64,000 nt of DNA from Micromonospora sp. NBC_01796 (lineage in GTDB: Bacteria > Actinomycetota > Actinomycetes > Mycobacteriales > Micromonosporaceae): assembly GCF_035917455.1 (NCBI RefSeq), contig NZ_CP109078.1:3224001-3288000 (forward strand). The letters are read 5' to 3'. Of this stretch, positions 9,976 to 16,054 are shown piece after piece (position 1 is the first letter of the stretch; every line of letters begins with the position of its first letter). The notes beneath the pieces are model-generated. The model was not told where the DNA came from, made no database searches, and was given only the letters and a program-made list of their open reading frames with translations. Made by a program: the position numbers and the translations under genes.

Positions 9976-10263
9976 TCAGACCGTGACGGTCGGCGGGGCC
10001 GGGGTCGGGGGGTGGCCACCGTCGCCGTCGACCACCTCGTCCGGCGTGCCGTCCTCGGTGAGGTCGACCATGGTGATGTCCACCGTGCCGTCGCCGGTGG
10101 TGTCGAACTGGAACAGGTCAGCCTTGCCGTCGCCGTCGGTGTCGGCCACCCAGAGGTCGACCTTGCCGTCGTTGTTGGTGTCCGCGCGGATCAGGTCGAC
10201 CCGCTCGTCACCCCGCGTTTCGACGATCTCCTGCGACTCGGTGGTCGCCTGCGACTCGCTCAT
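9976..10263 (-). CDS. Asp-rich 13-residue repeat protein, 95 aa
   Basis: Small acidic protein without a signal peptide. Residues about 19-80 are a run of 13-residue units of the form D-x-[DNT]-x-D-G-x-x-D-x-x-x-x (for example DTNNDGKVDLWVA and DTDGDGKADLFQF), like thrombospondin type 3 or EF-hand-loop calcium-binding repeats. The C-terminus is a short proline/threonine tail. It is a clear paralogue of the 201-residue protein encoded at 13805-14410. Calcium binding is inferred from the DxDxDG pattern; cellular role unknown. Confidence 0.8.
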   Translation of the reverse strand: MSESQATTESQEIVETRGDERVDLIRADTNNDGKVDLWVADTDGDGKADLFQFDTTGDGTVDITMVDLTEDGTPDEVVDGDGGHPPTPAPPTVTV

Positions 10264-10487
10264 GAAGGGAAGCCCTTTCTCCGGCTGACTTGAGGCGTGC
10301 AGGTCCGCAGTACCCAGGACCGCGGCTCCGCATACGCTAGCGGCCCGGTACGGACAGCGCGTAGGTCACGGGACCAATGACCCGGCCGGTGCATAGCGTT
10401 CATTTCATCTGTTTCCCTGCTTCGCGCCAAGGTGCCTCGATAAGCTCGCAAACGCCGCGATGCACACCTAATAGACACGGGGGACTT

Positions 10488-11036
10488 ATGAGAAGGAAAC
10501 TGTTGGTAACCGGCTTGGCGGGCCTGGCGTTGGTCGCCGGACTGGCCGCACCCGCGCGGGCCGAGGACACCGGCACCACCATCGTCACCTTCAGCGTCAC
10601 CGGCGCGGGTGGCCTCGACATCACCGTGCCCGCCTCCGCCAACCTCGGCTCCGGCACGGCCGGCACCACCGTGTCCGGACAGCTCGGACCGATCACCGTG
10701 ATCGACCAGCGTGCGTCGCTGACCCCGAACTGGACCGCGACCGTCACCGGGTCCGACTTCACCACCGGCGCCGCCACGGCCGAGGAGACCATTCCGGCCA
10801 TCAACGTCCTCTACTGGTCCGGGCCCGCCACCGCGACCGCCGGCACCGGCACCTTCACGCTCGGCCAGGCCAACGCCGGTGCTGCCGTGATCATCAATGT
10901 GCCGAGGACGGCGTTCAGCCACACCGGTGGGACCGGCAGCAACTTCGCCACCTGGAACCCCACCCTGGCCGTCGCGATCCCGCCCGACGCGGTCGGCGGC
11001 ACCTACACCGGGACGGTGACACATTCGGTGCTCTGA
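10488..11036 (+). CDS. Secreted WxL-like surface protein, 182 aa
   Basis: Exported protein with an N-terminal signal peptide (MRRKLLVTGLAGLALVAGL...ARA, cleavage near residue 25). The mature part is Thr/Gly/Ala-rich beta sequence with a Trp-containing block (LTPNWTATVTGSDFTTG) and the C-terminal GTYTGTVTHSVL, resembling WxL cell-wall-binding domains, which attach non-covalently to peptidoglycan. The ATG at 10488 is used because it begins the signal peptide; 37 upstream in-frame codons are non-protein-like. The next gene encodes a DUF916/WxLIP-type partner, which strongly supports the assignment. Confidence 0.8.
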   Translation: MRRKLLVTGLAGLALVAGLAAPARAEDTGTTIVTFSVTGAGGLDITVPASANLGSGTAGTTVSGQLGPITVIDQRASLTPNWTATVTGSDFTTGAATAEETIPAINVLYWSGPATATAGTGTFTLGQANAGAAVIINVPRTAFSHTGGTGSNFATWNPTLAVAIPPDAVGGTYTGTVTHSVL

Positions 11037-11052
11037 TCTTGCCCACCGGCTG

Positions 11053-12060
11053 GTGCTGCTGACCTCCGCTGCCATCCTGGCGGTCGGGGTGCCCGCGGCA
11101 CCAGCCGGCGCGCAACGCGAGCTGCGACAGGACCCGGCCGAAGCCCGGGGCCTCGGCCTGCAACTGCTGGACATCCCGGTGAGCCGCGCGGAGGATCCGC
11201 GCGCCCGGGCGTACATCATCGACCATCTCAAGCCCGGCACGACGATCCATCGCCGGGTCGAGGTCCGTAACTCCTCCCCGGAACGTCAACACGTCGAGCT
11301 GTACGCCGGCGCCGCCTCGGTGGAGCGGAACTCCTTCACCGTTCCCGACGGGCGAGAGGGCAACGAACTCAGCCGCTGGGTGAGTCTGGAGTCGAGCAGC
11401 GTCGACCTGCCCCCGGGAGCGCGGACGGTGGTACCCGTGACCGTCGCCGTACCGAGGACCGCGTCGAAGGGGGAGCGGTACGGCGCCGTCTGGGCTCAGA
11501 TCACCAGAGCGCCGACGCAGCAGGACAACGTCGGTCAGATCCACCGGGTCGGCATCCGGATGTACCTCGACATCGGTGCCGGCGGCGAACCGCCCACCGA
11601 TTTCCGAATCGAAGGCCTGGCCGCCGCACGAGGCGACGGCGAGTGGCCCGTGGTCACCGCCCAGGTGCACAACACAGGCGGCCGGGCACTGGACCTGGGT
11701 GGCAGCCTCTCCCTGGTGAGCAGGTCCGGCACGGTCAAGGCCGGACCGTTCGCGGTGAAGACCGGCGTGACCATCCTTCCCGGCCAGCGGGCGCAGGTCA
11801 GCGCCCTGGTGGATCAGCCGCTGTCGGCCGGGCAGTGGGACGCCCGGATGACCCTGTTCAGCGGGACCGTGGAGCGTACCGGCGAGGGATCGGTCATGCT
11901 GCCGGGGATGGTCACGGCGCAGGTGGAGCCCGGTGGGCGGGGCACGCTCGTACTCTCGCTCTCGGTCGGCGCCGCCATCGCGCTGTTGCTGGTGGTCGCG
12001 GCAGTCGTCTGGTATCTCGTCCGGCGGGAGCGCAGGCGGTCCGGGGCCGTGCCGGGCTGA
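11053..12060 (+). CDS. DUF916-type WxL-interacting membrane protein, 335 aa
   Basis: Cell-surface protein with an N-terminal export signal, an extracytoplasmic beta-sandwich region with IDHLKPGTTIHRRVEVRN and RYGAVWAQI (the DUF916 peptidoglycan-binding pattern), then a second beta domain. A C-terminal membrane helix (LSVGAAIALLLVVAAVVWYLV) is followed by the basic stop-transfer RRERRR. Partner proteins of this type hold WxL proteins at the cell wall. The GTG at 11053 gives a signal peptide lacking the usual basic N-terminus, and no clear ribosome site precedes it. An in-frame stop at 11017 limits upstream starts, so translation may depend on coupling to the WxL-like gene 16 bp upstream. Confidence 0.82.
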   Translation: MLLTSAAILAVGVPAAPAGAQRELRQDPAEARGLGLQLLDIPVSRAEDPRARAYIIDHLKPGTTIHRRVEVRNSSPERQHVELYAGAASVERNSFTVPDGREGNELSRWVSLESSSVDLPPGARTVVPVTVAVPRTASKGERYGAVWAQITRAPTQQDNVGQIHRVGIRMYLDIGAGGEPPTDFRIEGLAAARGDGEWPVVTAQVHNTGGRALDLGGSLSLVSRSGTVKAGPFAVKTGVTILPGQRAQVSALVDQPLSAGQWDARMTLFSGTVERTGEGSVMLPGMVTAQVEPGGRGTLVLSLSVGAAIALLLVVAAVVWYLVRRERRRSGAVPG

Positions 12061-13804: not shown

Positions 13805-14410
13805 TCAGCGGCTGCCGTACGGGTTGCTGTCCGAGTCGAGGTAGGCGACCTGGTTCGCCACCCCGTCGAAGTCGGTGTCGACGACGAGTTGATCGGGGCG
13901 GCCGTCCTCGTCCAGGTCGGTGACGGTGTGGTCGGGGCGCCCGTCGTGGTTGACGTCCCGTACCCAGTTGTCCGGCTCGCCGTCGAGGTCGGTGTCGCGG
14001 ACCACCTGGTCCATCAGGCCGTCGTTGTTGGTGTCGGTGGCGACCCGGTCGATCACACCGTCCTCGTTGCTGTCACCGATGATCCGGTCCACCGTGCCGT
14101 TGTCGTCGTAGTCGCGCAGCATGGTGTCCAGCGCACCGTCGTGGTCACCGTCGATCAGGGTGGTCTCGGCGGTGCCGTCGCTGTCGAGGTCCTGCTGGAC
14201 CAGGTCGGCGACCCCGTCGCCGTCGAAGTCGGTGAGCACGTCGGTGGAGCCGTCGACGTGGTGCTCCACCACCGTCTCCGGGTGGAAGGCCGCCAGGTCG
14301 TACGCGGGCAGTTCGGGTCCCGGGTCGATCTCGGGCCCGAAGCCCTCCTGCCCGTCGGTGGAGCCGAAGTTGGTCTCCTCGGCCAGCGGGTTGTCGGTGA
14401 AGTCGCTCAT
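13805..14410 (-). CDS. Asp-rich 13-residue repeat protein, 201 aa
   Basis: Acidic protein with no signal peptide or membrane helix. After an N-terminal acidic region of about 60 residues it holds ten consecutive 13-residue units of the form D-x-[DN]-x-[DN]-G-x-x-[DNE]-x-x-x-x, such as DFDGDGVADLVQQ, DSNEDGVIDRVAT and DTDFDGVANQVAY. The register is unbroken, which implies a regular solenoid or a string of calcium-binding loops. It is paralogous to the 95-residue protein encoded at 9976-10263; both are preceded by MS(D/E)-type N-termini. Function unknown; calcium binding is inferred. Confidence 0.82.
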   Translation of the reverse strand: MSDFTDNPLAEETNFGSTDGQEGFGPEIDPGPELPAYDLAAFHPETVVEHHVDGSTDVLTDFDGDGVADLVQQDLDSDGTAETTLIDGDHDGALDTMLRDYDDNGTVDRIIGDSNEDGVIDRVATDTNNDGLMDQVVRDTDLDGEPDNWVRDVNHDGRPDHTVTDLDEDGRPDQLVVDTDFDGVANQVAYLDSDSNPYGSR

Positions 14411-14530: not shown

Positions 14531-15883
14531 TCAGTGCCGGATCTGCACCCCGGCGGCCGAGAGCGCCTTGATGACCTGCGCCGATTCGGCGAACCCGATG
14601 ACCAGGACCGCGTCCGCACCGAACTGCTTGATCTCCTGCGCGCCGCTGGTGAAGTCGACCGGCGGGGAGTCCGGCTTGGCCGGCGGCTCGTAGGTGAGCA
14701 GCTTGACCCGGTCGGCGGCGAACCCGGCCCGTTCCAGTTCGGCCTTGACGTTGCCCTGCAGGCCCTCGCCGTACGAGTCCTTCCGGGCGACCAGGGCGAT
14801 CCGGTGCGGTCCGTCCCGCATGATCACGTCTGCCAGCGCCCGGCCCTGGAGGATGTCCGAGGGTGCGGTACGGAAGTAGCGTCCCTGGTCGTCGATGGTG
14901 GTCAGACCGGCGTCGGTGTTCGACGGGGAGAACAGGATCAGACCGGCCGCGACCACGTCGGGCAGCACCGCGCGGGAGATCCCGGACGCGGCGGCACCGA
15001 TGATCACGTGTACGCCGGCCGCGACGTGTTGCGCGACGGTCGCCTTCGCGACGTCCGGGTTGGTGCCGTCGTCGCCGTCGACCCAGACCGCCGGCTCGCC
15101 GAGCACACCACCGGCCTCGTTGATCTCCTTCATGGCCAGTTTCGCGCCGGCCGCGATCGGCGGGTACGCCAGAGCGAGGTCACCGGTCTTCGGCAGCAGC
15201 CCGCCGATCTTGAGCGGTGACCCGTCGCGCTTGTCGTTCTTGCCGCCGACCTGCTTCTTCGGCGGGGGCGGGGCCTGGGTGCTGGCCGCCGACTCGTCAC
15301 CGGCGCCGACGAACTCGGTCTTGCCGTCGTCGATCTTCGCCTGCTCGCCGAAGTGCATGGTGGCGTAGCTCGCGGTGGACGGCTCACCCGCGTCGGTGAA
15401 CCCGCCCCGGTTGAGCGAGACGCCCCGGTACTCGATGTCCGTACCGGTGCGGGCGATGGTCAGGCACGCACCGATCGAGTCGCACCGCTGACCGCCCACG
15501 GTCACGCCGTTGATCTGCTTGGCGATGTCGGCCGGAGCGGTCGAGCCGGCCAGTTGCGCCGCGAGCGCGCTCACCGCGATGGCGTCGTAGACCTCGGCGG
15601 AGTAGAGGAAGTCGGTGAGCGCCGGGTCGATGGCGGTGACCCGGCTGACGAAGTCCTTGGACAGCGGGGTGAGCGGGATGGTGCCCTTCATGCCGTCCAG
15701 CAGCTTGGTCTGCCCGTCGAACTCCTTGACGAAGGAGTTCTGCATGTTGCCGTCCGTGCCGTAGAGGCGCGTCGGAGTCGCGGTGGACTCCTCCGCGTTG
15801 TCTCCGCCGCAGGCGGTGGTGGCAAGCAGGAGCGTCGCGCAGGCGGCAAGGGCAGCACCGCGCGAACCGCGTGGTACGAGCAT
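14531..15883 (-). CDS. Circularly permuted ABC-type substrate-binding lipoprotein, 450 aa
   Basis: Branched-chain-amino-acid-type (type I) binding protein with its halves in reversed order. Residues 1-25 are a lipoprotein signal ending LLLATTAC, with Cys25 as the lipid site. Residues 40-196, starting LYGTDGNMQNSF, match what is normally the C-terminal half. Residues 197-223 are a proline/lysine-rich linker. Residues 224-450, starting LKIGGLLPKTGDLA and ending SAAGVQIRH, match the normal N-terminal half. Joined end to start (AGVQIRH then TRLYGTDG) they give the canonical order. The ATG at 15883 has GGAGG upstream. No permease neighbours it, so it is an orphan binding protein; ligand unknown. 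Confidence 0.85.
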   Translation of the reverse strand: MLVPRGSRGAALAACATLLLATTACGGDNAEESTATPTRLYGTDGNMQNSFVKEFDGQTKLLDGMKGTIPLTPLSKDFVSRVTAIDPALTDFLYSAEVYDAIAVSALAAQLAGSTAPADIAKQINGVTVGGQRCDSIGACLTIARTGTDIEYRGVSLNRGGFTDAGEPSTASYATMHFGEQAKIDDGKTEFVGAGDESAASTQAPPPPKKQVGGKNDKRDGSPLKIGGLLPKTGDLALAYPPIAAGAKLAMKEINEAGGVLGEPAVWVDGDDGTNPDVAKATVAQHVAAGVHVIIGAAASGISRAVLPDVVAAGLILFSPSNTDAGLTTIDDQGRYFRTAPSDILQGRALADVIMRDGPHRIALVARKDSYGEGLQGNVKAELERAGFAADRVKLLTYEPPAKPDSPPVDFTSGAQEIKQFGADAVLVIGFAESAQVIKALSAAGVQIRH

Positions 15884-16054
15884 GAGGTCGTCCTTCCTCC
15901 CCGAAGGTCCGCTGCGCACACTAGCGTGCGTCCGGCCGACCATGTGACTGCGGTCGTAGATCGATCTTTTACCCGGCGGTAATATACGCCGGCCGATAGC
16001 TTTCGGGCATTCCCGAGCGCCCGCTTGACCTGGCGGCATACCCTTCCGCACGTG

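Follow-up and report, generated by a model that had tools for sequence, protein, structure and literature searches.

The window, i.e. the whole 64-kb stretch of the Micromonospora sp. NBC_01796 genome that was analysed, carries on its minus strand an open reading frame (ORF) running from position 15883 down to 14531 and encoding a protein of 450 amino acids. The following features were assigned at this locus, with the basis of each assignment given in brackets.

14531..15883, minus strand: gene for a circularly permuted type I substrate-binding protein (SBP), a lipoprotein of 450 amino acids, plus stop codon (ORF list, Pfam, profile matches)
15891..15900, minus strand: ribosome-binding-like sequence GGAGGAAGGA, 7 nt 5' of the ATG (read by eye)
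15809..15883, minus strand: lipoprotein signal peptide (residues 1-25) with the lipobox LLLATTAC and a predicted lipidated Cys25 (sequence reading)
15773..15808, minus strand: short tether (residues 26-37) from Cys25 to the first strand (sequence and AlphaFold2 model)
15296..15772, minus strand: residues 38-196, the C-terminal segment of unpermuted relatives, starting with the strand LYGTDG, which is read as the fourth strand of the C-lobe (profile matches, model)
15215..15295, minus strand: Pro/Lys-rich linker (residues 197-223) from the old C-terminus to the old N-terminus (sequence; model)
14534..15214, minus strand: residues 224-450, the N-terminal segment of unpermuted relatives, ending after the strand-helix pair read as number three of the C-lobe (Pfam, profile, model)
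13805..14410, minus strand: Asp-rich repeat ORF, 120 bp downstream of the SBP gene and on the same strand; a transcription unit shared with the SBP is only possible (ORF list, locus map, Pfam)

The signal peptide and lipobox were called by reading the sequence, without a signal-peptide predictor. Cys25 is invariant across the 25 rows of the permuted alignment A1.

Pfam family Peripla_BP_6 (PF13458) matches residues 223-447 only, covering positions 1-216 of the 343 positions of the profile (E 1e-36), while in an unpermuted relative positions 2-311 are matched in a single piece. Using a natural-order profile built from 26 unpermuted relatives, residues 35-190 of the window protein match positions 276-428 (E 1.4e-48) and residues 210-447 match positions 46-275 (E 3.9e-77). 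The two matches are thus in swapped order, practically without gap or overlap. A rotation scan was also made, in which the start of the window sequence was shifted in steps of five residues and the best single profile match was scored. The native order reaches 251.8 bits, compared to a maximum of 411.2 bits at start residue 201, which is part of a plateau (starts 186-221) corresponding to the linker region. Shuffled controls gave any match in just 2 of 20 cases, the best scoring 2.2 bits.

The N-half directly matches solved structures of Leu/Ile/Val-type SBPs, and the unpermuted relatives align collinearly with such proteins (LivJ/LivK, Atu2422, 4n0q) over most of their length. Searched alone by sequence, the C-half has no match among solved structures up to E 10, and therefore its identity rests on the natural-order relatives. 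The type I SBP fold is recognised by sequence through Pfam for the N-half and through the natural-order relatives for both halves. A profile comparison of the permuted alignment A2 with alignment A3 matched the longer half alone, which is expected of an order-keeping tool. Compared to the Leu/Ile/Val-type SBPs (Peripla_BP_6), the window protein differs in its chain order, in having no liv operon adjoining its gene and, presumably, in the lobe carrying the anchor.

The window protein is a naturally circularly permuted type I (cluster B) SBP lipoprotein of the Liv/HAAT kind. Its chain runs from the signal peptide to the old C-terminal part, the linker and then the old N-terminal part. As this order is swapped relative to the canonical type I SBP chain, the protein is classed as a permuted variant and not as an ordinary Liv-type SBP. 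The original prediction had proposed such a natural permutation, with a lipoprotein signal followed by the normally C-terminal half, a linker and the N-terminal half. This is confirmed by the lipobox with Cys25, the swapped profile matches, the rotation scan, a confident AlphaFold2 model and the occurrence of permuted and unpermuted relatives in many assemblies. The prediction was also right in that re-joining the ends restores the canonical order practically without gap or overlap (profile positions 46-275 followed by 276-428) and in its coordinates for the linker, 15215-15295. Taken together with the genomic context and the proposed steps discussed below, the reading as an evolutionarily permuted, lipid-anchored type I SBP of the Liv/HAAT kind is given a probability of about 0.88.

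Within the set of relatives, 25 of 37 Micromonosporaceae genomes, counting that of the window, have a full-length permuted form, and the other 24 best Micromonosporaceae matches share 47-95% identity with the window protein. Of 300 Micromonosporaceae genomes, 232 match at E <= 1e-15. The best E value is <= 3.8e-101, the level of full-length permuted matches, in 189 of these, and the 43 weaker matches, those of g11 among them, were typed in part only. Permuted forms were typed in Micromonospora, Salinispora, Plantactinospora, Phytohabitans, Asanoa, Catellatospora, Virgisporangium, Dactylosporangium, Catenuloplanes and Hamadaea for the Micromonosporaceae, and in Blastococcus, Klenkia, Geodermatophilus and Modestobacter for the Geodermatophilaceae; these carriers were drawn partly from the best 80 matches (of at least 80). 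Permuted and unpermuted forms together, 180 of 397 genomes match in the order-level sample and 70 of 396 in the phylum-level sample. Homologues sharing the permutation, as looked for in the original prediction, are thus found across both families. The probability that the chain order is an assembly or annotation artefact is practically nil: the window genome is one contig, and the same order recurs, in one open frame, in more than 100 separately assembled genomes. This breadth rules out an assembly error, and collinearity with ordinary binding proteins, the other outcome that would have contradicted the permutation, was not observed either.

Unpermuted relatives share up to ~45% identity with the window protein over both halves. 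The best of them reach ~42-48% over the N-half and 40-48% over the C-half, and some go down to 30%. An unpermuted actinobacterial sister family (e.g. L157, L161, L167) has the same residues at the pocket positions and the same Cys pair as the window protein. This sister family has the natural order and lies beside the permease set LivF-G-M-H, whereas the window copy is found without such an operon. The original prediction had also suggested a search for an unpermuted paralogue in the same genome, but no close one was found, the next best SBP match being 34% identical over residues 233-447.

AlphaFold2, run on 52 permuted sequences, yields a model with a mean pLDDT of 87.7 and a pTM of 0.83. 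Mean pLDDT is at least 84 in every ten-residue block outside residues 1-40 and 211-220, and the latter, located in the linker, form the weakest block apart from residues 1-40 (mean 57). The pTM value and Foldseek both support a two-lobed alpha/beta fold in this predicted model. The 50 best of 494 Foldseek matches (E <= 0.001) align over one half and belong either to type I SBPs or to receptors containing this domain, and the best matches to SBPs cover ~229 aligned columns out of some 335-400 residues. Only one half is covered because an order-keeping aligner can align just one half. Based on the confidence values and the strand order, we infer that the two halves pack as one fold.

According to DSSP, the strands of the model in encoded order start with E38-43 and E66-70, and the chain ends with strand E425-429 and helix H434-443. 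The sheet order of the C-lobe in type I SBPs is given as 2-1-3-4-5 in the available part of PMC4990184. In the model, E362-367, E393-398 and E425-429 are read as the first three strands of the C-lobe and E38-43 and E66-70 as the fourth and fifth, which would place the cut between C-lobe strands three and four. The cut in the window protein is therefore probably inside the C-lobe sheet and not, as originally predicted, at a crossover between the two lobes, a site at odds with the type I topology and with the order of strands in the model. Residue 217 of the solved Leu/Ile/Val-binding protein 1z15 aligns with window residue 445, so the cut corresponds to residue ~218 of that structure. The C-lobe of 1z15 is taken here to span residues 121-249; if these limits are right, residue ~218 is well inside the C-lobe.

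Residues Y41, G42, D44, S300, P320, T323, Y371, G372 and E433 as well as the cysteines C134/C140 are identical in 52 of the 52 rows of alignment A2, which consists of permuted Geodermatophilaceae and Micromonosporaceae proteins. By alignment, Y41-G42-x-D44, S300, P320, T323, Y371-G372 and E433 are presumably located at the known Liv pocket. Via the natural-order family, D44 corresponds to the Asp of the 'SGDG' stretch in Atu2422, which we take to contact the amino group of the ligand. The Cys pair C134 and C140 is kept in both permuted and unpermuted forms. Since the residues at the known Liv pocket positions are invariant, a two-lobed flytrap binding an amino-acid-like ligand is predicted, and the window protein is expected to be a working Venus flytrap for such a ligand. 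The permuted protein would still fold as a two-lobed Venus flytrap, with its new ends between strands three and four of the C-lobe sheet and with the linker joining the old ends, thereby adding a fourth crossing between the lobes. With the N-terminus moved to the C-lobe, the lipid anchor would change lobes: it would now be attached at the C-lobe tip rather than at that of the N-lobe.

A permuted type I SBP is already known. According to the available part of PMC4990184, TpMglB-2 (Tp0684) is a circularly permuted type I ligand-binding protein, designated 'Type Ic / Cluster Bc'. Like the window protein, it is described there as a naturally permuted, lipid-anchored type I SBP with an additional lobe crossover, found in an ABC-transporter setting. 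TpMglB-2 is a sugar-binding relative of MglB with a rearranged N-lobe (strand order 5-4-6-1-2-3; PMC4990184, same part). In contrast, the window protein is of the Liv/HAAT kind, its cut is read in the C-lobe, it has close unpermuted relatives matching both halves, and its family is cut at two sites. Of the features of TpMglB-2 given in that part of the paper, the window protein shows the circular permutation but does not have the first three N-lobe strands last in its chain. As far as this source extends, the window protein works like TpMglB-2 but outside its lineage, and what is new here is the other family and the other cut. No published report of this permuted SBP family was found among the matches listed, in a literature mostly outside subscription journals.

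Of the 204 ORF matches that were typed, 137 have the cut described above (cut A), 57 are unpermuted, eight have a different cut (cut B) and two are partial; some genes are covered more than once in these counts, where one gene falls in several loci. Cut A is found at profile position ~276, before 'VYGTDGNMGN', and cut B at 297-299, before 'LxGMKGT', ~21 profile positions further on. The eight cut-B ORFs represent six distinct genes, and three further cut-B genes were found (L246, L247, L252). This second permuted form belongs to other actinobacterial lineages. Most B proteins end like '...DGNMGNALGExFDAGx' and their body starts like 'GELEGMKGTTP', which would put cut B between the fourth and fifth C-lobe strands. 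Between the lipobox Cys and the point where the C-half match begins, there is a median of 10 residues in A, a short tether, and of 43 in B.

Trees were built on de-permuted sequences, in quick and careful versions. Duplicate loci and, for reasons of size, part of the permuted Micromonosporaceae and Geodermatophilaceae rows were left out, and L129 was dropped on account of a stretch with seven stops. Because of their long branches, the outgroup L002 and L155 were removed after the first tree, and L252 and L274 from the enlarged set onward. Group A forms one clade, with SH-aLRT values of 97 and 99 in two quick trees and support of 98/95 in the careful tree. Group B splits into B1, from families f43, f84 and f126, and B2, from two f30 genomes, and unpermuted lineages separate the two. 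The N-half trees split A in two but do not reject a single A clade (p 0.91 in the quick tree, where the constrained tree outscored the unconstrained one). A is recovered as one weakly supported group (86/35) in the C-half tree.

At least two independent permutations within this SBP family are well favoured by these trees, and three would be probable. An alternative, considered unlikely, is that all permuted forms go back to one duplication-fusion event which was later resolved at two slightly different cut sites. The short distance between the two sites would fit a single event, and several AU tests do not clearly reject it: p-AU is 0.051 for A+B as one clade and 0.39 for B as one clade in the quick tree of the first set of 99 rows, 0.095 and 0.46, respectively, in the quick tree of the N-half alone, and 0.071 for A+B1 in the quick tree of the enlarged rows. 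Besides, groups A and B were named after seeing a tree, so these p values are somewhat too favourable to independence. However, the enlarged rows reject one permuted clade in both the quick (A+B 1.1e-4) and the careful tree (2.4e-5), as does each half alone in the careful trees (0.0054 for the N-half and 0.030 for the C-half). B as one clade reaches 0.0011 (quick) and 0.0015 (careful) with the enlarged rows, and 0.039 and 0.078 in the careful trees of the C-half and N-half, respectively; A+B1 reaches 0.0285 in the careful tree of the enlarged rows. Independent permutations are thus the preferred reading.

As the route to the permutation, a tandem duplication is proposed whose copies fused in frame and then lost their outer parts. 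In some Geodermatophilaceae and type B permuted proteins, a weak match (10-22 bits) links the signal-peptide stretch to the beginning of the unpermuted profile, which fits this route since a duplication would give such a match. No duplication intermediate was recognised among the 204 typed ORFs or in the later typed set, so the duplication route is inferred only. According to the available part of PMC3320104, fission and fusion is the other standard route, in which separate half-genes would have been fused in the other order. This appears improbable for the present family: the typed set yielded no recognisable separate half-genes (2 of the 204 ORFs are partial), and the weak match of the signal stretch is of the kind that a duplication would give. 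Tandem duplication is retained as the proposed route.

The gene neighbourhoods were compared using a map of adjoining ORFs, which is limited to ORFs having a relative in at least one further mapped locus; Liv genes were identified by Pfam. In the unpermuted loci, a gene of the LivM or LivH cluster adjoins the SBP in 23 of 26 cases, and the SBP is mostly arranged tail-to-tail with LivH, LivM, LivG and LivF. In mapped loci of the Geodermatophilaceae, the permuted SBP occupies the place of the unpermuted SBP beside LivF-G-M-H. At L128, L134 and L135, the permuted SBP is located between an ANTAR response regulator, which we take to be PdtaR-like, and DNA polymerase I. A LivM/LivH-cluster permease is present in six of the ten mapped permuted loci of the Geodermatophilaceae and f13; of the other four, three are second copies at different places and one is cut off by a contig end beyond an ATPase. 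Second, more divergent permuted copies without mapped liv genes adjoining are found in three f16 (Geodermatophilaceae) genomes (L150, L151, L152), and the permuted gene seems to have been orphaned in this family too. Among the type B loci, five of six have a permease of the liv set. An N-terminal CarboxypepD_reg-like domain was observed in both LivH proteins scanned, one in a permuted-SBP operon (L128, 14763-16190, above the Pfam cut-off) and one in an unpermuted-SBP operon (L157, 10284-11576, below the cut-off).

For the Micromonosporaceae, none of the 17 mapped permuted loci, of which the window is one, has a LivM/LivH-cluster gene over a distance of up to 10 kb (longer in the window). The window genome has 31 matches to the Liv-type permease family PF02653, none of which is within the 64-kb window, in agreement with the predicted lack of a permease beside the gene. 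The cognate permease and ATPases are thus not encoded alongside the window copy, whereas they are for permuted copies in the Geodermatophilaceae. The cluster 1 neighbours of the Micromonosporaceae copies at L074, L103, L111 and L120 were considered as LivF/G; those of L103 and L120, judged by eye from their sequences, look instead like other ABC ATPases. When the cognate LivM was searched for in the genomes of 61 relatives (E <= 1e-40), it was found in 10, and in the Micromonosporaceae solely in the six genomes with an unpermuted SBP. Among the 25 Micromonosporaceae genomes with the permuted gene, it was not found in 22 and is present in three, which also hold an unpermuted SBP. The nearest LivM-like proteins in the window genome are 34% and 32% identical to the cognate LivM. 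Beside polA, this genome has a different liv set, whose ordinary SBP shares 34% identity with the N-half of the window protein. This set (L276, G000:C1:5324000-5336000) belongs to another subfamily; several other genera hold the family's own liv operon there.

The Micromonosporaceae copy would now serve another permease or act as a stand-alone receptor. That it works with another ordinary Liv permease of the cell, e.g. the polA-side one with its own unpermuted SBP, has a little less than an even chance. The 31 PF02653 matches and the canonical liv set adjoining polA would fit such a partner, but the polA-side LivM is only 32% identical to the LivM of the Geodermatophilaceae operon and nothing ties the SBP gene to this permease. 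It is very unlikely that the Micromonosporaceae copy is a decaying, functionless remnant. Such a fate would agree with the missing cognate LivM in 22 of 25 genomes and with the long branch (0.62) leading to the Micromonosporaceae clade; however, a full-length open frame is retained in many Micromonosporaceae genera, and both the residues at the pocket positions and the Cys pair are invariant.

Returning to a functional orphan, a more far-reaching scenario can be proposed, which is tentative and rather doubtful. The SBP family would have undergone three independent permutations, all with cuts in the C-lobe (one preceding strand four, two preceding strand five), and each would have moved the anchor from the N-lobe to the C-lobe. 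Anchoring at the C-lobe would then be adaptive, e.g. as a fit to LivH proteins bearing an additional extracytoplasmic domain, and the orphan of the Micromonosporaceae would be a stand-alone receptor.

Parallel permutation within one SBP family would be a surprise, and natural permutations of binding proteins are rarely caught together with close unpermuted sisters. Here, permuted and unpermuted genes with up to ~45% identity fill the same operon place in related bacteria. This makes the effect of a permutation on lobe closing, permease docking and the place of the membrane anchor testable, as well as repeated permutation at neighbouring loops. Liv-type scaffolds permuted by evolution might also be of use in sensor design.

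Two Asp-rich repeat ORFs with DxDGDGxxD-like units are present in the window, at 13805-14410 and 9976-10263, both on the minus strand. Neither has a Pfam match, and no signal peptide is seen in them by eye. A relative of the former ORF is located 3' of the permuted SBP, on the same strand, in loci L074, L087, L110, L114 and L125. At 10377-12060 on the plus strand, a signal-like ORF without a Pfam match is followed by an ORF with a weak, below-cutoff match to WxLIP_PGBD (PF06030, E 5e-4). These two ORFs are perhaps a WxL-like pair in an actinomycete.
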